Positions 167 through 41,311 of a stretch of DNA of 44,276 nt are shown in pieces (position 1 is the stretch's first letter; the number at the start of each line of letters is the position of its first letter). This DNA is from Kiritimatiellota bacterium (lineage in GTDB: Bacteria; Verrucomicrobiota; Kiritimatiellia; Kiritimatiellales; Tichowtungiaceae). Both the position numbers and the translations under genes were made by a program. The DNA lies in assembly GCA_014381785.1 (NCBI GenBank), contig JACNKZ010000041.1, positions 1 through 44,276 on the forward strand, given 5' to 3'. The notes under the pieces were generated by a model. It worked only from the letters and a program-made list of their open reading frames with translations. It was not told where the DNA came from and did not search any database.

Positions 167-202
167 TTCCAAACCTTGAAAAAAATCTTCTAAGGTTTGG
201 AA
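167..202 (-). terminator. Hairpin 3' of the sulfur-transferase gene, made of two palindrome copies
   Basis: Two imperfect copies of the dispersed palindrome, at 167-180 (right arm TTGAA) and 188-202 (left arm TTCTAA), face each other. TTCCAAACCTT at 167-177 pairs perfectly with AAGGTTTGGAA at 192-202, giving an 11-bp stem and a 14-nt loop. The hairpin starts about 10 nt after the stop codon at 212 of the minus-strand gene and is followed on that strand by only a short A/T stretch. It probably ends that operon, although the U-tract is weak. Nothing else is recognisable in bases 1-166. Confidence 0.55.
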
Positions 203-211
203 CCCCCGTGA

Positions 212-2674
212 TCAGGAGATGAAAAGGTTGGCGTTGCTCTGCGTCAGGCGGTCGACATACATGGCAACGCCACCCTCGTCGACGCCGTCGATGAGCTCTT
301 CGCTCTTGATGCCCATCAAGTCCATGCTCATGGTGCAAACGACCAGTTTCACACCGCCAAGTTGCGCCTGAGCAATCAGCTCTTCGAGCGTCATCACGTT
401 TTTGTGTTTCATGATGCCTTTAATCATCGCCAACCCCATGCCCCCCATGTTCATTTTGGAGAGCGCAAGTTTGCTGGTGCCTTTGGGCATCATGATTCCG
501 AACATTTTTTCAATGAGGTTTTTCTTTGCCACAACCGGGCCGGATTTCCGCAAGATGTTGATTCCCCAGAAAGTGAAGAACAGCGTCACCTCGTAGCCCG
601 CGGCAACGGCGCCGTTAGCAATGATGAACGCAGCGACAGCTTTGTCGAAGTCATCACAGAAAACGACGTTGGTCATGGCGCGCTTTCCAGACGTTGGAAC
701 GCCGCCTTGCGCCGCGGCACGCTTGATAATGGTGGCGCGATAGGAGCCGCCCTCGCCGGGATCCATGGAGGCGAGCTCGTGGCCGGTGCTGTGGCACCAG
801 GCGGGGGCGTCGGCCACAAAGCCAGGGTCGGTTGCGCTGATGCAGACGGCTTCGCCTTCGTTAATTTCATCGATGGCATTTTTGAGCTGAAGGATCGGGC
901 CGGGGCACTGCAGGCCGCACGCGTTAATGGTTTTCACAAGGTTCATCGTTTTTTCCTCTTCTACAGTTTTAAACTTCTGATCGTCGGAGTCATTTTCAGG
1001 GTGATAGTCTTCGGGCATTTCAGTCGCACGGATTCCGGCTGTCCGCTGGTAGGTGATGTAACCCCCGGTCAGGTTGCGGCAGGTAAACCCGTTCTGCGAC
1101 AGAATGCGGCAGGCAAGATAGCCCCGCAGGCCGACGCGACAGAACACGAGGTATTCCTTGTCCTTGTCCAATTCATCGAGCCGCTCACGCAACTCATCGA
1201 TCGGAATGTTTTTCGCGCCGGGAATGGTTCCGGCGGTGACTTCATAGGGGGTACGCACGTCAAGAATCTTCTGCCCGGCGGCCGGGTTGACGACATCGGA
1301 AACCTGACAGATTTTGACATCGCCGCGCAGCGCGTTGGCGGCGACAAACCCGGCAAAGTTGATGGGGTCTTTGGCGGAGCCGAACGGCGGAGCGTAGGAA
1401 AGCTCGAGCTCTTCCAGATCGTACACCGTGAGTCCCGCACGAATGGCGACGGCAAAGACGTCGATGCGCTTGTCGACGCCATCGGCCCCGACGGCCTGCG
1501 CGCCGAGCACTTTGCCCGTTTCGGGGTCGAAAAGCATCTTGATGCTGAGCGCGGCGGCGCCGGGATAATAAGAGGCATGGCTTGCGGGGTGCACATAGAT
1601 TTTCTCGAAGGCGATGCCTGCGCGCTGCGCGCCCTTCTCGCTGAGACCGGTCATGCCGATGGCAAGATTGAACACTTTACAGATAGCGGTTCCCTGAGTG
1701 TCTTTGTAGCGCGAGGAGCGGCCGAAGATGTTATCGGCGGCAATACGCCCCTGTCGGTTAGCCGGTCCGGCCAGCGGAATGAGCGCCGGCTCGCGCGTGA
1801 CGAAGTCAATCACCTCAACAGCATCGCCGACCGCGTAGATATCCGGAGAGGACGTCTGCATCCGGTCGTTCACCCGAATGCCGCCGCGCGGACCGAGGTC
1901 CAGCCCGGCACCGACGGCGAGGCCGGTTTCCGGTTTAACGCCGATGGCGAGAATCGCGACGCCGGTATCCAGCGTTTCGCCGGAGCTGAGCGTCAACTTC
2001 AGGCCTTTTTCTGTCTCTTCGAAGCCGCTGACGGAAGTGCCGAGGCGGAGATCGACACCGTTAATCTCTAATTCCTGATGCAGAATGGAAACCATTTCGG
2101 GATCGGCGGGGCCCATGACCTGCGGGGCGAGCTCGATCAGTGTGGTGGACATGTCGCGGCTCCGCAGGGCCTCAGCCATCTCGAGGCCGATATAGCCGCC
2201 GCCGATCACGGTGGCGTGCCCGGCGTCGCCGAGGGCCTCGATGATGCGGTCCATATCCTCCATGTTGCGGAGTGAAAGAACGCGTCGGCTTTCGATGCCC
2301 GGAATGGTCGGACGAACCGGCTCAGCTCCGGGACTGAGAACGAGCGAGTCGTATGTTTCAGTGTAGATTTCGCCGCTTTCGAGATTCTTAATTTTGACCT
2401 CTTTGTTTTCCGGGTCAATGGCGATCACTTCATTGCGGGTCCGCACGTCGATCTTAAACCGGGTGCGTAGCTGCTCGGGCGTGGTGACCAATAGACGATC
2501 GCGATCGGCAATTTCACCGCCAATGTGATAGGGGAGTCCGCAGTTGGCAAACGAGACATACGGACCGCGTTCCAGTAGAATAAGTTCCGCCGTCTCGCTC
2601 AAGCGCCGGGCGCGCGCCGCAGTGCTTGCGCCGCCGGCCACTCCGCCAATGATGATCATTTTTTTTGCGTCCAT
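212..2674 (-). CDS. CoA-disulfide reductase-rhodanese-TusA-DsrE2 fusion protein
   Basis: An 820-residue cytoplasmic sulfur-transfer flavoprotein. Residues 6-455 form a pyridine nucleotide-disulfide oxidoreductase of the CoA-disulfide/persulfide reductase type: FAD motif IGGVAGG near 9-15, active Cys45 in FANCGLP, and second nucleotide motif VIGGGYIG near 156-163. Residues 460-545 are a rhodanese domain with Cys512 (FCRVGLRG). Residues 577-655 are TusA-like with the CPGP motif at Cys590. Residues 667-820 are DsrE2-like with Cys780 (CTMSMDLMG). Together these domains would reduce CoA persulfides or disulfides and pass sulfane sulfur between cysteines; the exact substrate is inferred. The start is set by AAGGAG eight bases upstream, which overlaps the end of arsR. 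Internal ATGs at 946 (Met577) and 676 (Met667) open the TusA and DsrE2 domains and are preceded by purine-rich SD-like bases, so the protein may descend from an operon. A dispersed palindrome (685-699) lies in the TusA-DsrE2 linker. Confidence 0.9.
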   Translation of the reverse strand: MDAKKMIIIGGVAGGASTAARARRLSETAELILLERGPYVSFANCGLPYHIGGEIADRDRLLVTTPEQLRTRFKIDVRTRNEVIAIDPENKEVKIKNLESGEIYTETYDSLVLSPGAEPVRPTIPGIESRRVLSLRNMEDMDRIIEALGDAGHATVIGGGYIGLEMAEALRSRDMSTTLIELAPQVMGPADPEMVSILHQELEINGVDLRLGTSVSGFEETEKGLKLTLSSGETLDTGVAILAIGVKPETGLAVGAGLDLGPRGGIRVNDRMQTSSPDIYAVGDAVEVIDFVTREPALIPLAGPANRQGRIAADNIFGRSSRYKDTQGTAICKVFNLAIGMTGLSEKGAQRAGIAFEKIYVHPASHASYYPGAAALSIKMLFDPETGKVLGAQAVGADGVDKRIDVFAVAIRAGLTVYDLEELELSYAPPFGSAKDPINFAGFVAANALRGDVKICQVSDVVNPAAGQKILDVRTPYEVTAGTIPGAKNIPIDELRERLDELDKDKEYLVFCRVGLRGYLACRILSQNGFTCRNLTGGYITYQRTAGIRATEMPEDYHPENDSDDQKFKTVEEEKTMNLVKTINACGLQCPGPILQLKNAIDEINEGEAVCISATDPGFVADAPAWCHSTGHELASMDPGEGGSYRATIIKRAAAQGGVPTSGKRAMTNVVFCDDFDKAVAAFIIANGAVAAGYEVTLFFTFWGINILRKSGPVVAKKNLIEKMFGIMMPKGTSKLALSKMNMGGMGLAMIKGIMKHKNVMTLEELIAQAQLGGVKLVVCTMSMDLMGIKSEELIDGVDEGGVAMYVDRLTQSNANLFIS
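685..699. repeat. Dispersed palindrome, TTCCAG-ACG-TTGGAA
   Basis: Near-perfect copy (left arm TTCCAG) inside the sulfur-transferase gene. It codes for V-P-T-S-G-K in the linker just before the DsrE2 domain. Confidence 0.7.
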
Positions 2675-2688
2675 ATCGAAAACTCCTT

Positions 2689-2988
2689 TTAATCTGTAAA
2701 ATGTAAAAACGTGCGCAGGTGATTGTGCATGCAGTCGAATAGTTTCAAAAAGTCAGGGTTCTGCAGTGCGCAATATTTTTGCGTGCCCTCTTTGCGGATC
2801 GTCACCAATCCCTGCTGGCAAAGAATCTTAAGCTGTTGCGACATCATCGACTGACTGCACCCGAGCTCTTCATATAGCGCCGTACACGTTCGCTCGCCCC
2901 CAGCCAGCAATTCAATCACACCCAGCCGTACCGGATGTGCCATTGCTTTGAGCACCTCTGCGGTCAATTTGCGTTCATCATGTGTCAT
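2689..2988 (-). CDS. ArsR/SmtB-family repressor with two-Cys layout
   Basis: A 99-residue winged-helix repressor. AHPVRLGVIELL (17-28) and SQSMMSQQLKIL (45-56) are the typical ArsR helix 2 and recognition-helix segments. It lies 14 nt upstream of the CoA-disulfide reductase fusion on the same strand, so the two should be cotranscribed and autoregulated. Cys35 (GERTC) and Cys86 (LFDC, last helix) sit where the persulfide-sensing SqrR/BigR proteins carry their paired cysteines; Cys44, 57 and 73 are extra. The classical ArsR arsenite motif CVC is absent. Sensing of sulfane sulfur is therefore more likely than of arsenite, by inference only. The start is supported by GGAGGG about 6 nt upstream. 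A 14-bp AT palindrome in the promoter (3014-3027) is a candidate operator. Confidence 0.92.
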   Translation of the reverse strand: MTHDERKLTAEVLKAMAHPVRLGVIELLAGGERTCTALYEELGCSQSMMSQQLKILCQQGLVTIRKEGTQKYCALQNPDFLKLFDCMHNHLRTFLHFTD

Positions 2989-3013
2989 ATTTCGCCCTCC
3001 AAAGATTAGAAGA

Positions 3014-4391: not shown

Positions 4392-4432
4392 GCCCTGTTT
4401 TCCAAATTTTGGAAAACGGGGCTTCTTTTTTT
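4392..4432 (+). terminator. Rho-independent terminator built around the dispersed palindrome
   Basis: A perfect palindrome copy (4400-4414) forms the top of a 15-bp stem. The base is GCCCTG paired with CGGGGC (one G-U), and a U-rich tract TTCTTTTTTTT follows. It lies 25 nt after the porin stop codon. The same CCCCGTTTT-palindrome-AAAACGGGG layout recurs near 27.78 kb and 32.33 kb. Confidence 0.88.
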
Positions 4433-8704: not shown

Positions 8705-9391
8705 ATGTCTAAAACGATCGAGTGGGCACGCCGGATCGCGGCGCTGGCGCAGGCGGGGCTGACCTACACCAAAGATCCCTACGAGAAGGAACGCTGTGAG
8801 GAGTTGCAGGCTCTCGCCGCCGAAATGATGGCCGCCGCCACCGAACAGGCTGAGCCTGCATCCAACCATCTTTCCACGCATCGGAAAACTCTGTGCCCGT
8901 CGCGGCTCGCGACTTCCAACCATTGGAAAAAAATCTTCCAGAATGAATCAGGCTATGCCACCCCGAAAGTCGATGTGCGCGGCGCGATCTTTCAGGACGG
9001 CAAGGTTTTGCTTTCCCGCGAACAGGACGATGACTGCTGGAGCCTGCCCGGCGGCTGGGCGGATGTAAATGACACGCCGTCCGAAGCCGTCATCAGGGAA
9101 GTGCGCGAAGAAACCGGCTATCCGGTTCGGTGCACCAAGCTGGCTGCCGTGCTCGATCGCGATCTGCACTACAAAGAACCCGGGCACGCCCATCCGTTCC
9201 ACATCTACAAACTGCTGTTCCTGTGTGAGCTAACAGGAGATGCCGGCGAGCTGTGCCACGACATCACCGACGCCGCCTTCTTCGACCTGGACGATCTGCC
9301 CCCGCTCTCAAAACACCGCACCCTGCCCAAACACATCGAGCTGTTGCACAAGCACCATCAGAATCCCGGTCTCCCGACCGATTTTGACTAA
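8705..9391 (+). CDS. NUDIX hydrolase with N-terminal helical domain and unusual linker
   Basis: 228 residues. Residues 1-46 match the Nudix_hydro_N helical domain (WARRIAALAQAGLTYTKDPYE). Residues 86-215 form the NUDIX fold: YATPKVDVRGAIF, then LPGGWADVNDTPSEA and REVREETGYP as the Nudix box. In that box the first Glu of GX5E is Asp. It should hydrolyse a nucleoside diphosphate linked to another moiety; the substrate is unknown. The linker at residues 47-80 is longer than relatives I recall, low in conserved character, and contains S-N-H-W-K encoded by a perfect dispersed palindrome (8914-8928). The gene starts 15 nt after the marC-like gene, probably in the same operon. Confidence 0.9.
   Translation: MSKTIEWARRIAALAQAGLTYTKDPYEKERCEELQALAAEMMAAATEQAEPASNHLSTHRKTLCPSRLATSNHWKKIFQNESGYATPKVDVRGAIFQDGKVLLSREQDDDCWSLPGGWADVNDTPSEAVIREVREETGYPVRCTKLAAVLDRDLHYKEPGHAHPFHIYKLLFLCELTGDAGELCHDITDAAFFDLDDLPPLSKHRTLPKHIELLHKHHQNPGLPTDFD
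8914..8928. repeat. Dispersed palindrome, perfect, inside NUDIX gene
   Basis: TTCCAA-CCA-TTGGAA, read in the frame that gives S-N-H-W-K, at the domain linker. Confidence 0.85.
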
Positions 9392-9834: not shown

Positions 9835-9849
9835 TTCCAAACACTGGAA
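9835..9849. repeat. Dispersed palindrome, right arm CTGGAA
   Basis: TTCCAA-ACA-CTGGAA, intergenic, one mismatch between arms. Confidence 0.65.
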
Positions 9850-10275: not shown

Positions 10276-11706
10276 TCATGAACACCGTTGAAAGCGGGCG
10301 ACGCTCTCCACGTGGTTGGTCTGGGGGAACATGTCGACCGGCTGGCAGCTGACCAGTTTATACAAACCGTCTTCGCAGAGCATCTGACCGTCGCGCGCCA
10401 GCGAGGCGGGGCCGCAGCTTACGTAGATGACAATCGGCGGTGCGAGCTCGCGCAGCATCTTCACGGCTTTAGGATGCATGCCCGCACGCGGCGGGTCAGT
10501 AATAACCAGATCCGGCAGGCCGAATGCTTCGAGCTCGTCACGAATTTTTCCGAAGTGCATTAGATCCATCTGACGGAAGGTGCAGTTTTCAGCTCCGTGC
10601 TCAATTGCGTTTTTCTGTGCGTCAGCAACGGCGCTTTCAATCCATTCGATGCCGAGAATCTTGCCGCAGTATTTCGCCGCAAACAGTGCAATGGAACCGG
10701 TTCCGCAGAAAAGATCGTACACGGTTTCCGAACCTTGGAAAGCGGCCTGCTTGATGATCTCGTTGTAGAGCACGTCCGCCTGGGCGGTATTGGTCTGGAA
10801 GAAAGAGTTGGGCGAAATCTGATAGCTGTATTTGCCGAGCCGGTCGGTGATGAAGCCTTCGCCGCAGAGCACGTGCTCCTCTTCATTGAAGGCGACCAGA
10901 TTTTTACGGGTGCAGATGCCGTTCACAAAGGTGGTCAGTTTGTCACCGAAAGCGGTTTTCAGTTCAGCCAGCAGTTCGGCCATCAGCTCTGCGTCGTGCG
11001 TTGAGGTGATCAGGTTGACCATCAGCTCACCGGTCGCACCGCCCTGCCGAACAACGAGGTTGCGAAGGAACCCATCGGGCTTAAAGGTGGAATAAATGGA
11101 CAGCTTGCGGTCGCGACAGAAGATGCGGACGGTTTCAACGGCGAGATTCATCTCTTCGGTGGCGATGTCGCAGTGATCGATGTCGATCGCCTTGAAAAAG
11201 CATCCGGGAGCATGAAACCCGAGGGCGAAGTCGAGCGGCTTGTCGAGTTCTTCGGCGGGGATGTCCATTTCATCGGCGGTGAGGTAGCGCTGATCGGTAA
11301 AATCCATATCGATCTTATTGCGATAGCCGAATAAATCTTTGGCGGGGATACACTCCGCGACCTCGGGGCTTTCGAATCCGCCAAGATGTACCAGCGCATC
11401 CAGCACCTGCTTGCGCTTCACGCGCAGCTGTTCGGAGTAGTCGAAGTGCTGCCATTTGCACCCGCCGCAAATGCCGAAGTATTTGCAGCGCGGTTCCGTG
11501 CGGCGGTCGGAAAATTTGACAACCTCGGTGAGGCGCGCCTGCAGAAACTTCTTTTTGATTTTAGTGACTTTCGCGCGAACCGTATCGCCGACCGCAACGG
11601 GGCCTTCCACAAAAACCGTAATGCCGTCCTCGAGCCTTCCCACACAGCGGTTTTTGTCCGCTGTATCAAAAATCTCGACCTCTATGATTTCACCCTTTTT
11701 AGCCAT
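10276..11706 (-). CDS. rlmD: RlmD/TrmA-type RNA (uracil-C5)-methyltransferase
   Basis: 476 residues. A TRAM RNA-binding domain (about 1-62) is followed by an iron-sulfur motif C74-X5-C80-X2-C83, with a further Cys in DIDHCDIA. The SAM-binding Rossmann core shows VYDLFCGTGSIALFAA, then VITDPPRAGMHP and the catalytic-Cys segment IYVSCGPASLARDG. The family methylates C5 of uridine in 23S rRNA (RlmD, U1939; RlmC/RlmCD) or tRNA U54. The Fe-S cluster points to RlmD/RlmC, but the exact target cannot be read from sequence. A palindrome variant (10726-10740) codes for F-Q-G-S-E before the SAM motif. The start is the first ATG; upstream lies a perfect 44-bp palindrome. Confidence 0.88.
   Translation of the reverse strand: MAKKGEIIEVEIFDTADKNRCVGRLEDGITVFVEGPVAVGDTVRAKVTKIKKKFLQARLTEVVKFSDRRTEPRCKYFGICGGCKWQHFDYSEQLRVKRKQVLDALVHLGGFESPEVAECIPAKDLFGYRNKIDMDFTDQRYLTADEMDIPAEELDKPLDFALGFHAPGCFFKAIDIDHCDIATEEMNLAVETVRIFCRDRKLSIYSTFKPDGFLRNLVVRQGGATGELMVNLITSTHDAELMAELLAELKTAFGDKLTTFVNGICTRKNLVAFNEEEHVLCGEGFITDRLGKYSYQISPNSFFQTNTAQADVLYNEIIKQAAFQGSETVYDLFCGTGSIALFAAKYCGKILGIEWIESAVADAQKNAIEHGAENCTFRQMDLMHFGKIRDELEAFGLPDLVITDPPRAGMHPKAVKMLRELAPPIVIYVSCGPASLARDGQMLCEDGLYKLVSCQPVDMFPQTNHVESVARFQRCS
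10726..10740. repeat. Dispersed palindrome variant in rlmD
   Basis: TTCCGA-ACC-TTGGAA, one arm substitution; read on the minus strand as F-Q-G-S-E just ahead of the SAM-binding motif. Confidence 0.55.
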
Positions 11707-11871: not shown

Positions 11872-11886
11872 CTCCAAACATTGGAA
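11872..11886. repeat. Dispersed palindrome, left arm CTCCAA
   Basis: CTCCAA-ACA-TTGGAA, intergenic, 17 bp from the RND permease stop codon. Confidence 0.6.
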
Positions 11887-11902: not shown

Positions 11903-14900
11903 TTATGACTCCCGTTTAAACAGCCGACTGATATCTTCGAGGATCATAGTGAGCGACGGGATGAGCAGGAGCGTGATGCCGGTGGCGAAGAGAATTCCGA
12001 AGCCGAGGGAGATGGCCATGGGAATCAGGAAGCGTGCCTGACGCGAGGTTTCAAAGATCATCGGCAGCAGCCCGCCAAAGGTGGTGAGCGTGGTGAGGAC
12101 AATCGGACGGAAGCGCTGGACGCCGGCAGTCATGACGGAGTCGTGCACGCTCATGCCCTCCCGGCGCTTCTGGTTGAAGAAGTCGATCAACACCAGCGAG
12201 TCGTTCACGACCACACCGGAGAGCGCAACAATGCCGAAGATACTGATGACGCTCAGGCTGTAGCCCATCAGCATATGGCCGATCACCGCGCCGACAATGC
12301 CGAACGGAATGCTGACCATGATGATAAGCGGCTGGCTGTAGCTTTTGAACGGAATGGCGAGAATGATGTAGATCAGCAGGATGGCGCCGAGCAGTCCGTT
12401 GATGAGCCCCTGAACACTTTCGCGCTGGTCCGCCTGGCTCCCTTCAAAGGAATAGGAGAGCCCGGGATATTTTTCTTTCAGTGCGGTCAGCATGCCTCCT
12501 TTCATATCGGCGAGAACCAGGTCCGCTTTGCTCTTTGGCGTGACATTTGCGGAAACGGTTACGGTGCGGCGGCCGTTGCGGCGGCTAATGGTGGTGTAGG
12601 CGCGCCCGCGCTCCATCGAGACCACTTCGCGCAGCGGAACCTCGTGGCTGGACGGTGTGCGGAGGATCATTGACTCAAGGCTGAACTCGGTGGCGCGCTC
12701 GGCTTCGGGCAGACGGAGCATCACCTTCACCTCGTTGCGACCGCGCTGCTGGCGGATGGCTTCAGCGCCGTAGTAAGCGTTGCGCACCTGCCGCGCGACA
12801 GAGGCGGAGGTGAGCCCGAGGCTGCGGCCTTCCGGTTTGAGCTTAAAGTCGATCTGCGGCTTGCCGGGCGTAAACCCGTCGTCGATATCGCTGACAATCG
12901 AGTATTCACTCAGCTGAGCGGCCAGGTCGGCGCTGGCCTGTTCCAGCACACTGATATCGCGGTGCGAGAGCTCGACGGTCAGCGCGTCGGAGCTGCCCCC
13001 GGGGCCGCCGCTGTCGGCGCGGTAGCGAACGGTGTCGATTCCGGTGATGGCCCCGGCTTTCTTCCGCCAGCGCTCCACAAAATCCTCAGTGGAAACCGGA
13101 CGCACATCGGCATCGACCAGATCGAATGTGATCGACCCGCTATGCCCGCCGGTCACGCCGCGATCGCCGGTTCCGATATACGAAATGTATCCTTTGATCT
13201 GCGGCCGGCCGGTCTCCGCTTCGATCTCCTCAACGAGTTCCTGCCCGGCCCGGATGATGCGATCGTGAACCTCCTGCGTTTTTTCCACCGGTGAACCGTA
13301 CGGCAGCTTGAAGGTGCAAAGAGCCACATCCGACTCCACGCTGGGAAACAGCTCAAACCCCATACGCCCGCTTTTTACATGGCTGATCGTCAGAATCAGC
13401 ACGAAAAGTCCGACGGCGACGGTGAGGTAGCGGCGGCGCAGCGTCCGGTCGAGAAACGGTGCGTATTTTTCGCGGACAAACCGCATGAAGGCTTTTCCGA
13501 ACCGCTGCTGCAGACGGTGAAGCGCATGCGGGCTCTTCAAATCCTTTTGATGCCCCAGATGGGCGGGCAGAACAAACAATGCTTCCACAAGCGAAATCAC
13601 AAAGGTGGAACAGACCACCAGCGGAATGGCACTGAAAAATTTACCCATCACTCCGGGCACAAAATAGAGCGGCATAAATGCCACAATGTTGGTGAGAATA
13701 CTGAAGGTCACCGGCATCGCGATCTGGCGCGCACCGACAATGGCGGCGCGCAGGAACGGCATTCCCTCCTGGTGGTTGTGATAGATGTTTTCACCGACAA
13801 CAATGGCGTCGTCCACCACAATCCCGAGCGCGAGAATAAAGGCGAACATCGACACCATATTGATACTTAAACCCATCGCGGGCATAATCAGAATGGTGCC
13901 GAGGAACGAGATCGGAATTCCCATCATCACCCAGAAGGCCAGTCGCATTTCCAGAAAGAAACCGAGCACAATGAAAACCAGAATCAGCCCGAGCAACCCG
14001 TTGCGCAGCAGCAGATTCATCCGCTCGCGGAACATGTCCGCGCGGCTGTTCCAGACCTGCATTTCAATCCCTTCGGGAAGCGTTGCACGCAGCTCTTCGA
14101 GAACCTGCTTCGTCGCCTCATCGACCGAGACGGGCGTCTCTTTTCCGACGCGATACACGCTCATCGTCAGCGCGGGCTTGCCGTTGAAATAGGTGAACCT
14201 GTCGGAATCGTCGAATCGGTCGCGAATGGTCGCGATATCCTCCAGAAGCACCTGCGTTCCGTCGGCGCCGGTAATGACCGGAATCCTGCCGAACTGCTCG
14301 CCGTAGTCGCGGCGGTCGCGAACCCGGACGAGGATTTCGCCGCTGTCGGTTTTCATGCCGCCGCCCGGCGTTTCAACCGAGGCGCGCGAAAGGGTGTCTG
14401 CCACATCCGAAAGCGTCAGGTTATGGGCTCGCAGCGTGTCCTGCGGAATTTCGATGGCAATTTCATAGCTGCGCACATTGGACATCTCCACCTGCGTAAT
14501 GCCCGGCGACAGGATCAGGCGCTCGCGCACCTGCTCGGCCACCTCGCGCAAAACGGTGTCGGCCGTATCGGCGGAGACAATCACCGTCAGCACTTCGCGC
14601 CGGAGCGAGCTGACACTGACCGTCGGTTCCTCCGCGTCTTCCGGAAAGGTGCGGATCCGGTCGACCTCGCTCTGGATCTCCTGCGACAGCCGGCTCATAT
14701 CGTGCCCCGCCATCACCTCCACCGTAACGGTTCCCGACCCTTCCCGGGCGCTGGAGGTGACCTCCTCCACGCCGTCGAGACCGCGCACGGCCTCCTCGAC
14801 CGCCAGGACAATCGCCTGCTCCACCTCTTCCGGGCTGGCCCCGGGGTACGGAACGGAAACGGTCACAAAATCGAGCTCGGCGCTCGGCAGAAATTCCTGT

Positions 14901-16223: not shown

Positions 16224-17611
16224 TTGGAGTCCTCACGTTTAAGCTCATCGGTCCAGGTTCCGCCCAGCGTCCGATACAAGTTGATGCGGTATTGCAGCAG
16301 ATCGGTTTGCGCGGCGACGCGGTCGCGCTCCAGGTTTTGGAGGCCGACCAGCTCCACCAGCACGGGCAGGTATTGGCTCAGCCCGTTGCGGTAGCGGTTC
16401 AGTGCCTCGTTATAGGAGCTGCGGCTCAGCTTCAGGTTGCGGTCGAGCGCCTCGATGTAGTCGCGCTGCTTCTGCTCGGAAACCAGTGCGTCTTCCACCT
16501 CGTTGATGGCGCTGAGCACCGTTTCGCGATACGCCGCCAGCCGCTCATTGACCACCGCGCGGGTGCGCTCCACCTCCGCCTTGCGGCGGCCGCCCTCAAA
16601 AATCGGACCGGTAATGCTTCCGATCAGGTGGGAATACCAGTCGTCAAACAGATCGGCGAATTCGGCGCTGTCATATCCGGCGGTTGCGCTCAGGCGGATG
16701 GCGGGCAGCCGATCCGCGCGCGCAGCGCTCACGCTCCAGTCGGCCGACCGCAGCCGCAGCCCGGCCGCCCGGACATCGGGACGGTTGGTCAGCACGTCGG
16801 CAGGAAGTCCGATGGCCGGAAGAGCTCCAACCATTGGAAGTTTTTCGGTGGAAACTTCCAAGCTTTGGAAATCGCCGCGCCCAAGAAGAGCCGCCAGCTC
16901 GTTACGCAGCAGCTGCTCGCGCATCTCGGCCAGTGGAATTCGCGCTTCGGTTCCGGCGACGGTCTGGCGCTGCTGATAGACATCCAGTGCGGTGGCCTGC
17001 GATTTGCGGAAACGCAGCTCCACCAGCTCCAGCGAGGTTCTGTTGGCTTCGAGCTGCTGACGAAGCAGCTCCGTCTGTAACTTTTGCGAAACGATCCCGC
17101 TCCAGCGCAGAGCCGTCTGCGAGGCGAGCGTCATGGCGGCGGTTTTGAGCTGCTCGCGCGACACCTCGCGGTCAAGCGCGGCCGCTTCGCTCGCCGATTT
17201 TACGCGACCCCACAGATCCAGCTCATAGGAAGCGGTCAGGCCGAGCGAATACAATTCCGTCGAAACGCGGGTGTTCATATTCTGACGGGATGATCCGGAC
17301 GCGGCTGCATCGAGGGACGGCCAGCGCGCGGCCCCGCTCTTTGTTGCAACGGCTTCGGCCTGTGCCAGCCGCGCCCACGACTGCTGAATCGACGGACTGT
17401 CCGACAGCACCTCATCGACCAAACCATTAAGTTCCAAGGATTGGAAACTTTCCCACCAGCGGTTGGTCACATCCATGCCGGACTCAGAATAGAGCGAAAA
17501 CTGATCAGGAACATCGGCAGAGAAATCCCGCCCATCCGGCGCGAACCGCGCGCAGGAGGTGCACAATAAAACCGCCAGCAGAGCCATTCCATTTTGAATT
17601 CCAAATTTCAT
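16220..17611 (-). CDS. Outer-membrane efflux lipoprotein (OprM/NodT-like)
   Basis: 463 residues with a lipoprotein signal: hydrophobic MALLAVLLCTS then Cys (lipobox LCTSC near residue 20). Two OEP repeats follow, with typical AEAVATKSGAARWPSLDAAASG and RLPAIRLSATAGYDSAEF strands and long alpha-helical barrel segments. It forms the trimeric exit duct for the RND pump. Three dispersed palindromes lie within this gene (16825-16839, 16856-16870, 17432-17446), two coding for F-Q-S-L-E and one for P-M-V-G. No other gene here carries more than one. It overlaps the adaptor and the tetR-type gene by 4 bp each. Confidence 0.92.
   Translation of the reverse strand: MKFGIQNGMALLAVLLCTSCARFAPDGRDFSADVPDQFSLYSESGMDVTNRWWESFQSLELNGLVDEVLSDSPSIQQSWARLAQAEAVATKSGAARWPSLDAAASGSSRQNMNTRVSTELYSLGLTASYELDLWGRVKSASEAAALDREVSREQLKTAAMTLASQTALRWSGIVSQKLQTELLRQQLEANRTSLELVELRFRKSQATALDVYQQRQTVAGTEARIPLAEMREQLLRNELAALLGRGDFQSLEVSTEKLPMVGALPAIGLPADVLTNRPDVRAAGLRLRSADWSVSAARADRLPAIRLSATAGYDSAEFADLFDDWYSHLIGSITGPIFEGGRRKAEVERTRAVVNERLAAYRETVLSAINEVEDALVSEQKQRDYIEALDRNLKLSRSSYNEALNRYRNGLSQYLPVLVELVGLQNLERDRVAAQTDLLQYRINLYRTLGGTWTDELKREDSK
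16825..16839. repeat. Dispersed palindrome in efflux lipoprotein gene (1 of 3)
   Basis: CTCCAA-CCA-TTGGAA, one arm change; minus-strand reading gives L-P-M-V-G-A. Confidence 0.65.
16856..16870. repeat. Dispersed palindrome in efflux lipoprotein gene (2 of 3)
   Basis: TTCCAA-GCT-TTGGAA, perfect; minus-strand reading gives F-Q-S-L-E. Only 16 bp separate it from copy 1. Confidence 0.85.
17432..17446. repeat. Dispersed palindrome in efflux lipoprotein gene (3 of 3)
   Basis: TTCCAA-GGA-TTGGAA, perfect; minus-strand reading again gives F-Q-S-L-E, near the N-terminus of the mature lipoprotein. Confidence 0.85.
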
Positions 17612-18680: not shown

Positions 18681-19325
18681 ATGAATTTTAAACAGATCAT
18701 CTGGGACTGGAACGGGACGCTGTGGGACGACACATGGCTGTGTGTGGAAATCAATAACCACATGCTGGAGCGGAGGGGTCTGCCGCTGATCACGCTCGAA
18801 ACCTACCGGGCGAAACTCTGCTTTCCCGTCACTGACTACTACTGCCAGCTCGGCTTTGATTATGAAACTGCCCCCTACCCCCGGCTGGCGGAAGAGTTCA
18901 TTGAGGAGTATCACCGCCGCCGCTTTGAGTGCGAACTGCACCCCGATGCGCGGAAGCTGATTGGTTTTTTCCAAGGTTTGGAAACTCCGCAGGCCGTGCT
19001 GTCGGCCTATCAGCACGACACGCTGATGCAGGCGGTAGACCATTTCTGGCTGTTGGAATTTTTTACGGACGTCATCGGGCTCAACGACATCTATGCTCAC
19101 GGCAAGGTGGATAACGGGAAGCAGTACATCGCCCAGCTGGACGTCGATCCCGCCGAGGTGCTCTTCATCGGCGACACGATCCACGACTTTGAAGTGGCTG
19201 AAGCCATGGGCGTACAGTGTGCGCTGGTTGCCAACGGCCACAACAGCCGCGAGCGCCTCGAAGCCTGCGGCGTGCCGGTGCTCAATTCCCTTTCTAAACT
19301 ACGCAACATCATTTTGACAGGATAA
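18681..19325 (+). CDS. HAD-family hydrolase (phosphoglycolate phosphatase-like)
   Basis: 214 residues. Motif I is DWNGTLWDD: Asp9 is the nucleophile, but the usual DxD is DxN here, which also occurs in some HAD phosphatases. Motif II is VLSAYQ, motif III the Lys of GKVDNGK, and motif IV GDTIHDFEVA. A helical cap lies between motifs I and II. It probably dephosphorylates a small metabolite; the substrate is unknown. A perfect palindrome codes for F-Q-G-L-E (18969-18983) just before motif II. The start follows an AC-rich repeat by 10 nt and has no Shine-Dalgarno. The last codons and the stop lie inside another palindromic repeat (19314-19386). Confidence 0.85.
   Translation: MNFKQIIWDWNGTLWDDTWLCVEINNHMLERRGLPLITLETYRAKLCFPVTDYYCQLGFDYETAPYPRLAEEFIEEYHRRRFECELHPDARKLIGFFQGLETPQAVLSAYQHDTLMQAVDHFWLLEFFTDVIGLNDIYAHGKVDNGKQYIAQLDVDPAEVLFIGDTIHDFEVAEAMGVQCALVANGHNSRERLEACGVPVLNSLSKLRNIILTG
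18969..18983. repeat. Dispersed palindrome, perfect, in HAD gene
   Basis: TTCCAA-GGT-TTGGAA, read as F-Q-G-L-E. Confidence 0.85.
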
Positions 19326-19386
19326 CAGGATTCACAGGATCGCCTGCATACCCAAAGAAATCCTGTCCATCCTGTTATCCCGTCAA
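19314..19386. repeat. ACAGGAT-type long inverted repeat
   Basis: Arms of 27 nt (19314-19340 and 19360-19386) match at 24 of 27 positions. Both carry TTGAC, GGATAACAGGAT and ACAGGAT words around a 19-nt loop. It supplies the last codons and stop of the HAD gene. Similar GGATAACAGGAT palindromes are widespread in environmental genomes as I recall. A terminator role is possible. Confidence 0.85.
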
Positions 19387-19392
19387 AAAATA

Positions 19393-19407
19393 TTCCAATC
19401 ATTGGAA
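19393..19407. repeat. Dispersed palindrome, perfect, upstream of tadA
   Basis: TTCCAA-TCA-TTGGAA, 20 nt before the tadA start and 6 nt after the ACAGGAT repeat. It lies in the likely 5' leader. Confidence 0.85.
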
Positions 19408-20992: not shown

Positions 20993-21007
20993 TTCCAACC
21001 CTTGGAA
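20993..21007. repeat. Dispersed palindrome, perfect, intergenic
   Basis: TTCCAA-CCC-TTGGAA, 38 bp upstream of the WecG-like start. Confidence 0.85.
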
Positions 21008-21075: not shown

Positions 21076-21090
21076 TTCCAACCATTGGAA
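21076..21090. repeat. Dispersed palindrome, perfect, intergenic
   Basis: TTCCAA-CCA-TTGGAA, preceded without a gap by the GCAGGCTCAGCCTGC hairpin. Confidence 0.85.
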
Positions 21091-21850: not shown

Positions 21851-21913
21851 GCCGCAACGCAGTTGCTTTCCAAGGGTTGGAACTGACCGCGTCAGGGAAC
21901 AGCGCGTTGCGGC
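21851..21913. repeat. 10-bp inverted repeat enclosing a dispersed palindrome
   Basis: GCCGCAACGC (21851-21860) and GCGTTGCGGC (21904-21913) are perfect complements. A perfect palindrome TTCCAA-GGG-TTGGAA lies inside at 21868-21882. A truncated copy (TTCCAA-ACA-TTGAA, 21932-21945) follows 22 bp upstream of the MntP-ZIP start. Confidence 0.65.
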
Positions 21914-21967
21914 GCAAGGGCAATACGGCTTTTCCAAACATTGAAAGCCGGCTATGGTTTCCACGTT

Positions 21968-23311
21968 ATGCCGATGCTTTCCATACTACTGATTGCGCTG
22001 GGTCTGGCGATGGACGCCTTTGCGGTGTCGATCACCAGCGGAATCAGTATTAAAAACCTGAAGGCGCGCCACGCGCTACTGGTCGGCGCGGCCTTCGGTC
22101 TGTTTCAGGCGGTGATGCCGCTGCTCGGCTGGTGGCTCGGCCAATGGGCATACCAATGGATTTCCGCGGTGGATTACTGGATCGCATTCGGCCTGCTTCT
22201 GTTTGTCGGCGGCCACATGATCATTACCGCCATGCAACCGGAGGATGAAAACGGCCCGAAAAATCCGCTGCATTTGCCCACGCTGCTGACGCTGGCCGTC
22301 GCCACCAGCATTGATGCGTTCGCCATCGGCATCAGCCTGTCGATGCTGCGCGTGGCCATTCTGACGCCGGCGCTGATCATCGGGCTGGTTGCGTTCGCTC
22401 TCTCGGTTGCCGGCGTTTACCTCGGCCATCTGTTCGGACACTTCAATGAGAAAAAAATGGAGGTGGCGGGCGGACTGGTGCTGATCGGTCTCGGCATTAA
22501 AATACTGGTTGAGCATCTCATTGCCCATCATGCGATATTCGAAAGCTCGCATGCCATCTGGTTCGCGTTCGGGCTGACGCTGGCGGCCGGGCTGGCAACC
22601 GGGATCGGCAGTCTGATTGCCCTCTTCTCCCGCCACACCGCCAAACGGCGCTTCTCCTTTTTCCTCGGCATCTCCACCGGCCTGCTGCTTTGGACCGCCT
22701 TCCGGCAACTGATCCCGATCGCCGAAGCGGATCTCGGCGGACTGAAAATTCCAACGATTGCTTTCTTCGGCGGCTTTTTGATTACCGCGCTGATCGACCG
22801 GCTGGTTCCGGACTTTGGAAACCCGCACGAACCGCTGCGCGTGGAAGACCTGAAAGAGGTCCCGGACTTCCGGCGCACCGGTATGCCCGCCGCACTGGCC
22901 ATCATGGCGCACAGTTTTCCGGAAGGGCTGGCCATCTTTATCGCGGCACTGCACGCGCCGGCACCCATCGCCGTCGGTGCGGCCATCGCGCTGGCGTTGC
23001 ACAACATTCCCGAGGGGATCGCAACGGCGCTGCCGATGTATCACGCCACAGGAAACCGCGCGAAGGCATGCGGCTTCTCATCGCTTACCGGGCTGGCTGA
23101 ACCACTCGGCGCGCTGATTGCCTATACGCTGTTCCACCGTTTCATGAGCGGAGCGGCGCTCGGTGTGCTCACCGCCGCGAGTGCGGGCGTGATGGTATTC
23201 ATCGCGCTCGACGGCCTGCTGCCCGCCGCGCGCACCTACGGAAAATATCACCACGCCGTCTACGGCGTGCTTGTCGGCATGCTCGCCGCCGCCGGCCTCG
23301 CCCTGCTCTAA
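21968..23311 (+). CDS. MntP-ZIP fusion metal transporter
   Basis: 447 residues, almost entirely membrane helices. Residues 3-185 form a complete MntP (manganese exporter) domain with two internal repeats, each holding the key Asp: LAMDAFAVSI (Asp16) and TSIDAFAIGIS (Asp116). Residues 196-447 form a ZIP/ZupT-type domain with the metal-binding helices HSFPEG (315-320) and HNIPEG (345-350); ZupT usually has HNFPEG in the first. MntP exports Mn2+, whereas ZIP proteins normally import divalent metals, so one chain joins opposite activities. ATG 21968 is chosen; TTG 21941 is in frame but overlaps a repeat. No yybP-ykoY riboswitch was recognised upstream. Confidence 0.9.
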   Translation: MPMLSILLIALGLAMDAFAVSITSGISIKNLKARHALLVGAAFGLFQAVMPLLGWWLGQWAYQWISAVDYWIAFGLLLFVGGHMIITAMQPEDENGPKNPLHLPTLLTLAVATSIDAFAIGISLSMLRVAILTPALIIGLVAFALSVAGVYLGHLFGHFNEKKMEVAGGLVLIGLGIKILVEHLIAHHAIFESSHAIWFAFGLTLAAGLATGIGSLIALFSRHTAKRRFSFFLGISTGLLLWTAFRQLIPIAEADLGGLKIPTIAFFGGFLITALIDRLVPDFGNPHEPLRVEDLKEVPDFRRTGMPAALAIMAHSFPEGLAIFIAALHAPAPIAVGAAIALALHNIPEGIATALPMYHATGNRAKACGFSSLTGLAEPLGALIAYTLFHRFMSGAALGVLTAASAGVMVFIALDGLLPAARTYGKYHHAVYGVLVGMLAAAGLALL

Positions 23312-27740: not shown

Positions 27741-27755
27741 TTCCAAACCTTGGAA
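27741..27755. repeat. Dispersed palindrome, perfect, after helicase gene
   Basis: TTCCAA-ACC-TTGGAA, 8 nt after the stop codon and 17 nt before an identical copy inside the terminator. Confidence 0.85.
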
Positions 27756-27764
27756 AAAAAGAAA

Positions 27765-27800
27765 CCCCGTTTTTCCAAACCTTGGAAAAAACGGGGCTTT
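27765..27800. terminator. Terminator containing the dispersed palindrome
   Basis: CCCCGTTT and AAAACGGGG flank a perfect palindrome (27773-27787), giving a stem of about 14 bp with one bulged A. A short CTTTG follows on the plus strand. On the minus strand GGGGTTTCTTTTTTT follows, so it could work in both directions. Confidence 0.75.
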
Positions 27801-27932
27801 GCCGTTCCAGGGATTGGGACATTTTTCGGCGACGATTCAGGGTGGCTTCCTTTAAAAACCCCCTGTACAGTTTGAGTCTCACACGAAGGGCGACCTCTCC
27901 TTTCAAGAGACGTGCGGACCAATCAAGGGGTA

Positions 27933-35854: not shown

Positions 35855-35869
35855 TTCCAATCATTGGAA
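35855..35869. repeat. Dispersed palindrome, perfect, upstream of rsmB
   Basis: TTCCAA-TCA-TTGGAA, the same spacer as the copy ahead of tadA, 24 bp before the rsmB start. Confidence 0.85.
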
Positions 35870-37433: not shown

Positions 37434-38780
37434 ATGCTTACCCATCTTAAGAAAATTCAAAAACACCTTATCGTCGTGATTCCTGTTGTCATGGTCGCAG
37501 GCTTTGTAACCGGACTCACCATCAATCCGGCTCCGCTCAAACGTTGGATTATGCCGCTGACCTTCTTGATGGTGTATCCGATGATGGTGAACCTTCAGCT
37601 CAAAAAAGTGATTGAAGGCGGCGACACCAAAGTTCAAGTGGTGACTCAGCTGTTGAACTTTACCCTTCTACCGCTGATTGCCTTTCTGATTGGTAAAATC
37701 GCCTTTCCCGATTCGCCGTACATTGCGCTCGGCCTGTTGCTCGCCAGCCTTCTTCCCACCTCTGGAATGACGATTTCCTGGACCGGCATGGCGCGCGGCA
37801 ATATAGCAGCCGCTGTGAAAATGACCGTCTTCGGCCTGCTGATCGGCTCCATTCTCACTCCGATTTATATTAAGTTCCTGATGGGAACGGTGATCGAAAT
37901 TCCAATGGTTGGAATTTTTAAACAGATTGCGGTAGTAGTCGCGCTACCTCTCATTCTGGGGAACATCACGCAACGTCTTCTGATCCGTCGCTACGGCATG
38001 GCGCATTATCAAAAAGATATCAAACCGATCTTTCCACCCTTTTCCACCTTAGGGGTCGTAGGAATCGTTTTTGTCGCCATGGCGCTCAAAGCCAACTCGA
38101 TTGCCTCCAACCCCGGCCAGCTCATCACGCTAATCCTTCCATTACTCGCGCTATACGGCATCAACTTTTTGATCAGCACACTGGTCGGAAAGTTCTTTTT
38201 CAATCGCGGCGATGCCATCGCGCTCGTTTACGGAACGGTGATGCGCAACCTCTCCATCGCCCTGGCCATTGCGATGACCGCCTTCGGAAAAGAAGGATCG
38301 GAAATCGCGCTGATTATTGCACTGGCTTACATCATTCAGGTTCAATCGGCGGCGTGGTATGTCAAATTCACCGACCGGATTTTCGGTCCCGCGCCGGAAG
38401 CGCAGGTAAAAGACGTTATGCTCGCCGGCGTCTTTTCACTGCACGGCCGCGACACTGTTCAGAACGCCCTGCGCCTCTTGGCTGAAGAACATATTCATTC
38501 GTTTGCGGTGCTGGATGAAAACCAGCAGCCGCTCGGCATGGTCTCCACCGCTCTACTGCTAGATGCGCTGGCCGACGGAACAGCAACGGATACGCCGCTG
38601 AACGAGCTGCCGCTGGAACCCGCGCTGCTGATCCCCGCAAAAACACCGCTTAAACAGGCGCTGGCTCAGATGAAACGCGCCCACGAATATAAAGTGCTCG
38701 TCCCCGATGCGGACGGAAAAATTGAACACGTTTTGACGCAGGAAGAAATCATCCGGCACTTCGCCGAAAGCAAAAATTAA
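37434..38780 (+). CDS. SBF/ACR3-like transporter with C-terminal CBS domains
   Basis: 448 residues. About ten membrane helices (residues 10-320) have the bile acid:sodium symporter / arsenite permease pattern (TINPAPLKRWIMPLTFLMVYPMMVNLQ, LLASLLPTSGMTISWTGMARGN). The cysteine that ACR3 arsenite pumps carry in the helix-4 motif is replaced here by TSGMT, so arsenite transport is doubtful. Residues 328-445 look like a CBS pair (DVMLAGVFSLHGRDTVQNALRLL), possibly ligand-sensing. A sulfur-related anion is a reasonable guess given the neighbours. A perfect palindrome (37900-37914) codes for I-P-M-V-G-I. Confidence 0.78.
   Translation: MLTHLKKIQKHLIVVIPVVMVAGFVTGLTINPAPLKRWIMPLTFLMVYPMMVNLQLKKVIEGGDTKVQVVTQLLNFTLLPLIAFLIGKIAFPDSPYIALGLLLASLLPTSGMTISWTGMARGNIAAAVKMTVFGLLIGSILTPIYIKFLMGTVIEIPMVGIFKQIAVVVALPLILGNITQRLLIRRYGMAHYQKDIKPIFPPFSTLGVVGIVFVAMALKANSIASNPGQLITLILPLLALYGINFLISTLVGKFFFNRGDAIALVYGTVMRNLSIALAIAMTAFGKEGSEIALIIALAYIIQVQSAAWYVKFTDRIFGPAPEAQVKDVMLAGVFSLHGRDTVQNALRLLAEEHIHSFAVLDENQQPLGMVSTALLLDALADGTATDTPLNELPLEPALLIPAKTPLKQALAQMKRAHEYKVLVPDADGKIEHVLTQEEIIRHFAESKN
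37900..37914. repeat. Dispersed palindrome, perfect, in transporter gene
   Basis: TTCCAA-TGG-TTGGAA, read as I-P-M-V-G-I between two membrane helices. Confidence 0.85.
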
Positions 38781-38796
38781 GGAAGGAATGCTGAAC

Positions 38797-40467
38797 ATGA
38801 AAGTCATTGTCATTGGCGGCGTCGCCGCAGGACCCAAAGCCGCTTCGCGCATCAACCGTCTCTGCGCGGAAGCAGAAGTCACAATCATTGAAAAAGGCGA
38901 ACTGCTCTCTTACGCCGGTTGCGGCCTGCCCTACTACATTTCCGGGCAGGTGAAAGATTCGAAGGAACTGATGTCCACCCCGGTCGGCACCGTACGCGAC
39001 AGCGCCTTTTTCAAAAACGTTAAAAACGCGAACGTACTGAACCACACCGAAGCCACAGCCATCCATCGGAAACAGAAAACCGTGACCGTAAAAAACCGCG
39101 CCGGCGAGACGCAGGATCTGCCCTACGACAAACTGGTGCTGGCCACCGGCGCGGAATCCGCCGTTCCGCCGATTCCCGGCGTGGAACTCGGTAACATCTA
39201 CAACCTGAAAGACCTTCACGATGCTGATGCCATCAAAGCCACACTGGCGGAACACAAAGCCGTCAATGCCGTCATCGTCGGCGGCGGACTGATCGGCGTC
39301 GAGGTGGCGGAGGCCTTCCACGAAATGGGCTGCCGCATCTCCATCGTCGAATTTCTGCCGCAGATTCTCGGCATGATGGATCCCGAAATGGCTGTGCTGG
39401 TTGAAAAACATTTTGAGGCCAAAGGCGTAAAAATTCTGACGTCAACCCGCGTGACCGAATTTGCCGGGAACGGGCGCGTCGAAAAAGTGATCACCGATCA
39501 AGGGGAGCTCCCGGCGGATCTCGTGCTGCTGGCCACCGGGGTCCGTCCCGCCGCAAAGCTGGCGCAGGATGCCGGGCTGGAGATCGGCCCGACCCGCGCC
39601 ATCGCTGTCACCGACCGGATGCAAACCTCCGATCCGGACATTTACGCGGTCGGCGACTGCGCCGAAAAGAAAAACATGATTACCGGAAAGGCCGCCTACG
39701 TGCCGCTCGGTTCCACCGCCAACAAAGAAGGGCGCGTCGCCGCCAACGCCATCTGCGGCGTAGAAGATTCCTTCCCGGGCATCCTCGGCAGCGCCATCTG
39801 CAAGGTATTCGAGTACAGCGTCGCCCGCACCGGCCTCAGCGAAAAAGAGGCCCGCGACGCCGGATACGACGTCGTCACCTGTCTGGCCCCCGCGCCCGAC
39901 AAACCGCATTTTATGCCGGGTGCCAGGCTGTTGTTCTTCAAGCTGATCGCCGACCGAACAACGCGCAAACTGCTCGGCGCACAGGCCACCGGACCGGGCG
40001 GTGCCGACCGCCGGATCGATATTGCCGCCATGGCACTGACCGCCGGAATGACCGTCGATCAGCTGGCCAACGCCGACCTGGTGTACGCTCCGCCCTTCTC
40101 CCCGGCCGTCGACAACATCATCACAGCGGCCAACATCCTGCGCAACAAGATCGAGGGTCGCATGGATGGCATCACCCCCGGTGAGGTGCTAACAATGCTT
40201 GAGCGCAGAGAAGACTTCACCCTGCTGGATGTCCGCTCGCCCGCCGAGCGCGAACAGATGCGCATCGACGGCACCGTCGATATTCCGCTCGGCGCGCTGC
40301 GCGGACGTTTGGACGAAATCGACCGAAGCAAACCGGTTGTCGCCTTCTGCAAGATTTCACTGCGCGGCTACGAAGCCGCACTGATTCTCAAAAAGGCAGG
40401 CTTCAGCGATGTCAAAGTCATGGACGGCGGCATCCTGATGTGGCCCGGAAAACTGATCAAAGGATAG
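38797..40467 (+). CDS. CoA-disulfide reductase-rhodanese (FAD)
   Basis: About 556 residues. The FAD/NAD(P)H oxidoreductase part has VIGGVAAGPKAASR, active Cys42 (YAGCGLPYY) and the second nucleotide motif VIVGGGLIGVEVAEAF. The C-terminal rhodanese domain (about 460-556) has Cys518 (FCKISLRGYEA). This is the layout of NADH-dependent persulfide/CoA-disulfide reductases, and it lacks the TusA and DsrE2 extensions of its paralogue at 212-2674. ATG 38797 is favoured because GGAAGG lies about 10 nt before it, whereas ATG 38788 is too close. It follows the transporter by 16 nt. Confidence 0.9.
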   Translation: MKVIVIGGVAAGPKAASRINRLCAEAEVTIIEKGELLSYAGCGLPYYISGQVKDSKELMSTPVGTVRDSAFFKNVKNANVLNHTEATAIHRKQKTVTVKNRAGETQDLPYDKLVLATGAESAVPPIPGVELGNIYNLKDLHDADAIKATLAEHKAVNAVIVGGGLIGVEVAEAFHEMGCRISIVEFLPQILGMMDPEMAVLVEKHFEAKGVKILTSTRVTEFAGNGRVEKVITDQGELPADLVLLATGVRPAAKLAQDAGLEIGPTRAIAVTDRMQTSDPDIYAVGDCAEKKNMITGKAAYVPLGSTANKEGRVAANAICGVEDSFPGILGSAICKVFEYSVARTGLSEKEARDAGYDVVTCLAPAPDKPHFMPGARLLFFKLIADRTTRKLLGAQATGPGGADRRIDIAAMALTAGMTVDQLANADLVYAPPFSPAVDNIITAANILRNKIEGRMDGITPGEVLTMLERREDFTLLDVRSPAEREQMRIDGTVDIPLGALRGRLDEIDRSKPVVAFCKISLRGYEAALILKKAGFSDVKVMDGGILMWPGKLIKG

Positions 40468-40486
40468 TCAGAAAGGAAACCCGAAC

Positions 40487-40966
40487 ATGAGAAACAAAAT
40501 CATCACACTCATCGCAGGGATCATTGCCGGCGTGTTGTTCGCAGGAGTTGCCATGATGTCCATCATGCCGAAAATGATGCTGCACGAAAAGGAAAGTCCG
40601 CTGGGGTATCAGGAAACCATCGCGCATCTCGAAAACGTCATTACCAACAACGGCTGGATCATCTCGCGGAAAATCGACCTGCAGAAAAGCATCTCTCAGT
40701 ATGGAAAGACCATTCCTCAGGTAACGATCATCAAAATCTGCCAGGCCGATTACGCCGAAAAAATCCTGAATACCGACGAAGCCATGTACGTGTCCGTCAT
40801 GATGCCGTGCAGCATGGCGGTTTATCAGAAAAGCGACGGGAAAACCTATGTGTCCACCATGAACACCGGCCTGATGGGCAAAATGTTCGGAGGGGTGGTC
40901 GCCGAGGTCATGGGCGGCCCAGTCGCGGCAGACGAAGCAGAATTCACTGCGTTTCTGCACCAATAA
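40487..40966 (+). CDS. DUF302-domain protein with membrane anchor
   Basis: 159 residues. An N-terminal hydrophobic segment (about 5-24, ITLIAGIIAGVLFAGVAMM) is followed by a DUF302 fold with the ESPLGYQETIAHLENVITNNGW start, KICQADYAEKIL and the VMMPCSMAVYQKSDGKTYV core. DUF302 proteins are often found with sulfur and redox genes, but no activity is established. AAAGGAAA lies 7 nt before ATG. The next gene, for thioredoxin, starts 24 nt later. Confidence 0.85.
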   Translation: MRNKIITLIAGIIAGVLFAGVAMMSIMPKMMLHEKESPLGYQETIAHLENVITNNGWIISRKIDLQKSISQYGKTIPQVTIIKICQADYAEKILNTDEAMYVSVMMPCSMAVYQKSDGKTYVSTMNTGLMGKMFGGVVAEVMGGPVAADEAEFTAFLHQ

Positions 40967-40990
40967 CCCGAAACGGAAAGGAGCCTTCCG

Positions 40991-41311
40991 ATGAGTGTAA
41001 AACAACTGAACGACACAACCTTCACCGAAGCGATCCGGTCCGGCGCCACACTGGTCGATTTCTGGGCGCCGTGGTGCGGACCGTGTCAGATGCAGATTCC
41101 AATCCTTGGAAAAACAGCGGAGGCGGTCGGCGATCGCGCGGTGATTGCCAAACTGAATGTTGACGAAGCCCCCGCAGCGGCCTCACAATACGGAGTGCGC
41201 GGGATTCCGACGTTGATTCTGTTTAAAGACGGCGAAGAGGTCAATCGCTTCGTCGGCGTTCAGCAGGAGAACACGCTGCTCTCCGCCATCGAAGCGACTT
41301 TATCTGAATGA
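40991..41311 (+). CDS. trxA: Thioredoxin
   Basis: 106 residues with the classical active site WCGPC (Cys29, Cys32), a cis-Pro in RGIPTLILFKDGEEV and no signal peptide, so it is cytoplasmic. In this operon it may regenerate persulfide- or disulfide-carrying partners. The residues after the active site, I-P-I-L-G-K, are encoded by a perfect dispersed palindrome (41097-41111) and replace the usual A-P-I-L-E. AAGGAG lies 7 nt before ATG. Confidence 0.94.
   Translation: MSVKQLNDTTFTEAIRSGATLVDFWAPWCGPCQMQIPILGKTAEAVGDRAVIAKLNVDEAPAAASQYGVRGIPTLILFKDGEEVNRFVGVQQENTLLSAIEATLSE
41097..41111. repeat. Dispersed palindrome, perfect, in thioredoxin gene
   Basis: TTCCAA-TCC-TTGGAA, read as I-P-I-L-G-K right after the CGPC helix. 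Confidence 0.85.

Follow-up and report, generated by a model that had tools for sequence, protein, structure and literature searches.

Neighboring copies of a 15-bp palindrome, TTCCAA-N3-TTGGAA, are separated by whole turns of the DNA helix in the genome of a Kiritimatiellota bacterium. The palindrome was first recorded in a stretch of 44,276 nucleotides (contig JACNKZ010000041.1; hereafter, the window), which is contig C77 of a draft genome of 2,219,109 bases in 88 contigs. An earlier note on the window had described the motif as a dispersed repeat, and had listed three options for it: a DNA uptake sequence, a HIP1-like highly iterated palindrome, or the binding site of a nucleoid or regulatory protein. 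The helical phasing of the copies is a new finding. Unless stated otherwise, sequence-level statistics refer to the 983 kb that we examined, i.e., ~45% of the genome, encoding 790 proteins; gene calls are our own approximate predictions.

Helical phasing of neighboring copies

Motif copies are clustered, with 128 of 380 neighboring gaps being ≤160 bp, where 25 are expected. The distances between neighbors <160 bp apart fall into discrete classes of 21/22, 30–32, 41/42, 51/52, 60–64, 72–74, 82/83, 92–96, and 104 bp, with few values in between. Spacing is best fitted by an offset of zero and a period of 10.44 bp, which matches the helical repeat of B-DNA (R = 0.836, nR2 = 89, n = 128), and phasing is still detectable at distances of 160–300 bp. 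The signal is not confined to the commonest distances: when the 22-, 31-, and 32-bp classes are removed, R is 0.76 (n = 63), a value reached by none of 20,000 random sets. Another species of the same genus (genome G009) has a spacing period of 10.37 bp (R = 0.92, n = 35).

Phasing is the same for pairs in which both copies are coding (R = 0.87) and pairs in which both are intergenic (R = 0.81). Codon structure does not explain the phasing, since the main distances of 22, 31, and 32 bp are not multiples of three. Tandem duplication is not the cause of the pairs either, because the linkers of pairs spaced at 31/32 bp are unrelated except for the A/T run next to the motif, and the central triplet is the same in only 8 of 52 such pairs. 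The period also bears on whether the motif acts as an RNA element, i.e., a transcription terminator or an mRNA hairpin. A few copies do cap terminator stems (positions 4400 and 27773 of the window, and L008:7720), but the arms are extended by ≥4 bp in just 9 of 134 intergenic copies, many copies lie within genes, and the 10.44-bp period is that of B-DNA and does not differ between coding and intergenic pairs. We therefore regard an RNA element as very improbable.

Many families of the class have phased arrays, as do phage contigs. In the other families, the arrays consist mostly of 22- and 31/32-bp steps, although these stretches were picked for holding arrays and so illustrate the phasing rather than test it. 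The viral contig IMGVR_UViG_3300035698_006241 carries phased motif arrays with steps of 31, 31, and 41 bp (L214:3429-3505, L215:650-767).

Abundance, anatomy, and origin of the motif

Across the whole genome, the motif has 595 perfect copies, versus one for a reversed control pattern. The earlier note would have been undone by copies limited to the window or by a frequency no higher than base composition predicts; the genome-wide count disposes of both. Within the 983 kb, perfect, one-mismatch, and two-mismatch copies number 250, 169, and 123, respectively. The spacer between the arms is essentially fixed: 250 copies have 3 bp, one has 2 bp, three have 4 bp, one has 11 bp, and none has any other length between 0 and 11 bp. 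The full motif is TTTTCCAA-N-C-M-TTGGAAAA, where M is A or C; it takes in two to three flanking bases, which are T on the left and A on the right. In 245 of the 250 perfect copies, a G or C occupies the center, and in 231 the spacer reads N-C-[A/C] on one of the strands, with coding and intergenic copies being alike. The 250 spacers show no preferred orientation relative to genes or to neighboring copies. Tolerated changes in the core are mostly A5 to G and A4 to G. Two short palindromes, GCAGGCTNAGCCTGC and GCAACTGCGTTGCG, were also seen; of their 16 copies, 10 are ≤12 bp from a motif half-site (e.g., L020:13262, L023:7448, and L024:10550).

Predicted genes contain 116 of the perfect copies (0.15 per kb). 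This number is far above that in 20 synonymous-codon shuffles, a comparison the earlier note had proposed, which gave a mean of 1.95 and a maximum of 5. The other 134 copies lie outside predicted genes (~0.7 per kb), 11 of them at contig edges. The distribution of these copies speaks to the possibility that the motif is an operator bound by a global transcription regulator whose regulon is very large. A 15-bp palindrome in phased pairs, with mild enrichment 50–150 bp before gene starts, would suit an operator. However, nearly half of the copies are inside genes, where they are scattered fairly evenly along the gene length, and copies are depleted close to starts: intergenic copies show no enrichment within 50 bp of starts, and some enrichment near stops. 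Furthermore, convergent gaps, which are expected to lack promoters for the flanking genes, have a copy density (1.04 per kb) at least as high as that of divergent (0.71) or tandem (0.72) gaps. An operator with so large a regulon is accordingly an explanation that we consider quite unlikely. At a larger scale, ten samples of the G009 chromosome contain 17–57 copies per 100 kb, and no domain is evident.

Alignments to genomes of the same genus indicate that copies arise through point substitution and not through insertion. Some sites enter more than one comparison, and the comparisons are not independent of one another. The motif core is free of gaps in 71 of 85 site comparisons, with the differences being substitutions. 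Sequence identity is 0.90 in the core, 0.80 in the spacer, and 0.73 in the flanks, and cores are fully kept in 26 of 70 cases, versus 2.4 expected from flank identity. Individual sites are instructive: in one terminator, the stem and core are retained while the spacer has changed from TGC to ACC, and the copy in the thioredoxin gene of the window encodes the residues IPILG, in a conserved region behind the active site, with no apparent insertion.

Mobile palindromic repeats of the REP/MITE type, spread by a transposase, are likewise dispersed, palindromic, and patchy among relatives. For the present motif, such an origin is barely credible. In addition to the gap-free cores, near copies differ by substitution, there is no conserved unit beyond ~19 bp, and the copies are spaced at whole turns. 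Among the genomes compared, we found neither the spread by insertion nor the co-occurrence with a Y1 transposase that characterize REP elements with a RAYT transposase; Y1 transposases have no match in three motif-bearing genomes (G057, G075, and G086), and are common in motif-free ones.

Taxonomic range and candidate function

The SMC protein of the window matches named genomes of Pontiellaceae and Kiritimatiellales, which places the window in the class Kiritimatiellae. The motif is confined to this class, where genomes have between 0 and 1339 copies; ~190 genomes from other classes of the phylum have 0–5. All 14 genomes of the genus, part of the count in relatives that the earlier note had called for, contain copies (62–793 each). 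Some lineages appear to use dialects of the motif. With the relaxed pattern TTCCRR-N3-YYGGAA, copy numbers in family f19 (G059, G072, G083, and G092) rise from 0–3 to 104–398, with 4–5 for the control, so that this family likely uses a dialect of the same motif system; in several genomes of family f2, the count rises two- to sevenfold. Genomes with low copy numbers have a few copies, often arranged in phased pairs or triplets close to restriction or defense-like genes (L142:6392-6470, L144:4000-4045, and L145:1332-1378 and 12182-12228), and these phased copies were probably transferred from motif-rich relatives. Searches of the open-access literature for the motif strings, and for repeats or palindromes of the class, returned no relevant description.

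The reading we favor, and hold to be probable, is that the motif is the target of a putative class-specific dimeric protein that assembles cooperatively on one face of the DNA, and that this protein is probably architectural, i.e., a nucleoid protein. Because the spacing is locked to the helical repeat, a protein that reads several sites is favored over a tag that is read one site at a time. A dimeric, self-cooperating protein is suggested by the palindrome with its fixed spacer, the conserved core, the putative contact to the central base, and the whole-turn spacing, a combination that resembles the arrays which dimeric DNA-binding proteins form cooperatively. An architectural role would be the most likely one, since the sites are spread over the chromosome, in genes and in all types of gap. 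Each subunit of the putative dimer would bind one half-site of TTCCAA-N-C-[A/C]-TTGGAA, and bound dimers would contact copies on the same face of the helix, mostly three turns away (31/32 bp), but also two or four. The putative binder would most likely be a sequence-specific nucleoid protein that forms short filaments, wraps, or loops, with any regulatory role being secondary. Point mutation would create and remove copies at any place where the sequence allows it, and weak selection would retain them. Of the three options in the earlier note, the nucleoid or regulatory site is thus the best supported, with spacing locked to the helix over ~2–14 turns; uptake is disfavored, and the likeness to HIP1 is partial.

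The functions of highly iterated palindromes, which were described decades ago, are contested. HIP1, a contiguous 8-mer that is highly iterated in cyanobacteria, has been linked to DNA methyltransferases that recognize the inner GATC or CGATCG (PMC4390886). The present motif is similar to HIP1 in that many perfect palindromes are found genome-wide in one bacterial group, unevenly among species, and with a strong excess in both coding and intergenic DNA. It differs in being 15 bp long with a 3-bp spacer, in having no inner GATC or CGATCG, in its helical phasing, and in its taxon; the HIP1 core, GCGATCGC, is not contained in TTCCAA-N3-TTGGAA. Helical phasing is not known to us for HIP1.

DNA uptake sequences would mark self DNA for transformation, with copies building up by biased uptake; in this case, phasing would reflect a multimeric receptor that grips two sites on one face. 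The uptake sequences of Neisseria and Pasteurellaceae number hundreds to thousands of copies, in and between genes, and are accommodated by substitutions (PMC2346458). The present motif is similarly accommodated, with hundreds of near-perfect copies gained by substitution in genes, gaps, and terminator hairpins, and with likely related dialects elsewhere in the class. Dialects are also known for the uptake sequences of Neisseria and Pasteurellaceae. A ComEC gene is present, but comEC is found in 92 of 97 genomes, equally with and without the motif, and does not follow copy number. To our knowledge, uptake sequences are short and non-palindromic, and we know of none with whole-turn spacing. Moreover, copies of the present motif are clustered in phased pairs and arrays and not spread out, and arrays are also found on phage contigs. 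An uptake sequence is, in our judgment, unlikely, albeit a stronger contender than an operator.

Other known systems have features in common with the motif. NrdR boxes are paired palindromes with centers 31–32 bp apart, i.e., whole turns, that are bound cooperatively and serve one regulon. Lrp/AsnC proteins bind globally to odd palindromes of 15 bp, with phased wrapping of the DNA. Both share a spacing logic with the present motif, but differ from it in sequence and distribution. The matS sites of MatP and other nucleoid-organizing sites are sequence-specific palindromes with a variable center, spread over the chromosome; the present motif differs in having far more copies, in its phasing, and, judging from the samples of G009, in not being confined to one replication domain.

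We compared several gene families with the distribution of the motif as candidates for the binder. Lrp/AsnC proteins are present in 86 of 97 relatives, mostly as a single gene; their recognition helix is variable within the genus, and motif-free genomes also retain them. NrdR is canonical everywhere and present irrespective of the motif, with neither co-variation nor a changed zinc ribbon. DUF134 proteins are missing from most motif-rich genomes. AbrB/MazE proteins, for which AbrB-type sites read TGGNA, have no PF04014 match in the motif-rich genomes G009, G010, G020, and G076. A home-made helix-turn-helix scan of the 790 proteins (45% of the genome) returned DUF134, TetR, ParB, CRP-like, and phage proteins, among which only DUF134 was checked against the distribution. 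The neighborhoods of the largest arrays have no shared regulator, and the residual copies of low-copy genomes, taken as a pointer to an autoregulated binder, have no common regulator gene nearby.

Three observations count against a cooperating nucleoid protein. First, no binding protein was found, as the six gene families tested, including ComEC and the Y1 transposases, fail to explain the distribution of the motif. Second, copy number can differ sharply among closely related genomes (two members of one genus have 1 and 110 copies), an unusual pattern for a core function of the chromosome. Third, the ratio of perfect to near-perfect copies, 250:169:123, is high for ordinary binding sites under weak selection, and would fit a drive like biased DNA uptake as well.

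That hundreds of sites, pairs within genes among them, are phased at whole turns is direct evidence, from sequence, that some protein reads the DNA three-dimensionally on the scale of the chromosome, and it means that the spacing between iterated palindromes itself carries information. A broader proposal, which we put forward tentatively and consider less likely than not, is that the class has a sequence-addressed chromatin: a dedicated putative protein along hundreds of phased palindromes, with architecture encoded at the precision of a single turn and with lineage dialects. The motif provides a readily testable way to a new nucleoid or uptake protein in a class that has been little studied, and close relatives with and without the motif system exist as natural pairs.

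Motif copies in the window

In the window, TTCCAA-N3-TTGGAA occurs in 14 perfect copies and in 8 copies with one mismatch; shuffled sequences contain a mean of 0.18 for both types combined, with a maximum of 2 in 100 shuffles. If up to two mismatches are allowed, there are 34 matches, versus 2.3 under a Markov null. The earlier note had reported 27 copies, 14 perfect and 13 near-perfect. The number of perfect copies stands, while that of near-perfect copies, and hence the total, tracks the mismatch cut-off; the excess over chance is independent of it, since it persists at both cut-offs. Distances between close neighbors in the window are 21, 42, 31, 83, 64, 32, 32, 30, and 147 bp, all near whole helical turns (some pairs include a two-mismatch copy), a feature that is absent from the earlier note.

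The placement of copies both between genes and in coding sequence holds, with small corrections to positions. Two one-mismatch copies, at 167–181 and 188–202, are 21 bp (two turns) apart. Another, at 685–699, is within the coding sequence of a gene on the minus strand (212–2674) whose 820-amino acid product joins pyridine nucleotide-disulfide reductase, rhodanese, TusA, and DsrE domains in one protein. A perfect copy at 4400–4414, located between smc and an OMPP1/FadL gene, caps a terminator hairpin, with an N4-spaced variant (TTCCAACGGGTTGGAA) ~31 bp further on. A two-mismatch copy at 8872–8886 lies 42 bp (four turns) before a perfect copy at 8914–8928 that is inside a NUDIX gene (8705–9391, plus strand). 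One-mismatch copies follow at 9835–9849 (intergenic), 10726–10740 (inside a TRAM/tRNA-uracil-methyltransferase gene), and 11872–11886 (intergenic). An outer-membrane efflux gene contains three copies: a one-mismatch copy at 16825–16839, a perfect copy phased with it 31 bp (three turns) away at 16856–16870, and a perfect copy at 17432–17446. The next perfect copy, at 18969–18983, is inside a HAD-hydrolase gene. As previously stated, both smc and the RND permease of the window are free of copies with zero or one mismatch.

The earlier note had placed copies 20–24 bp before tadA, rsmB, and the MntP-ZIP gene. The perfect copy at 19393–19407 is indeed 20 bp upstream of tadA. By contrast, the copy before the MntP-ZIP gene (21932–21946, one mismatch) is 27 bp upstream of the predicted start, and the perfect copy at rsmB (35855–35869) either overlaps the start or lies ahead of it, according to the start chosen. 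The MntP-ZIP copy lies 64 bp (6.1 turns) after a perfect intergenic copy at 21868–21882; a further intergenic pair of perfect copies, at 20993–21007 and 21076–21090, is separated by 83 bp (eight turns). After the DEAD-box helicase gene, there is an array with 32-bp steps, comprising perfect copies at 27741–27755 and 27773–27787 and a two-mismatch copy at 27805–27819. Inspection of the sequence showed that the copy at 27773, like that at 4400, caps a terminator hairpin, in agreement with the earlier placement of copies in terminators. Toward the end of the window, a two-mismatch copy at 37753–37767 is 147 bp (14.1 turns) from a perfect copy at 37900–37914, inside an SBF transporter/CBS gene, and the perfect copy at 41097–41111 is that in the thioredoxin gene, directly after the WCGPC active site.

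Two minor features of the window deserve mention. The gene at 21941–23311 (plus strand) encodes an MntP manganese exporter and a ZIP domain fused in a single protein. A second dispersed repeat, with ATCCTGTTATCC / TTTTTGACAGGATAACAGGAT, is found at ~19370–19392; its 12-mer has 33 copies in the 983 kb.

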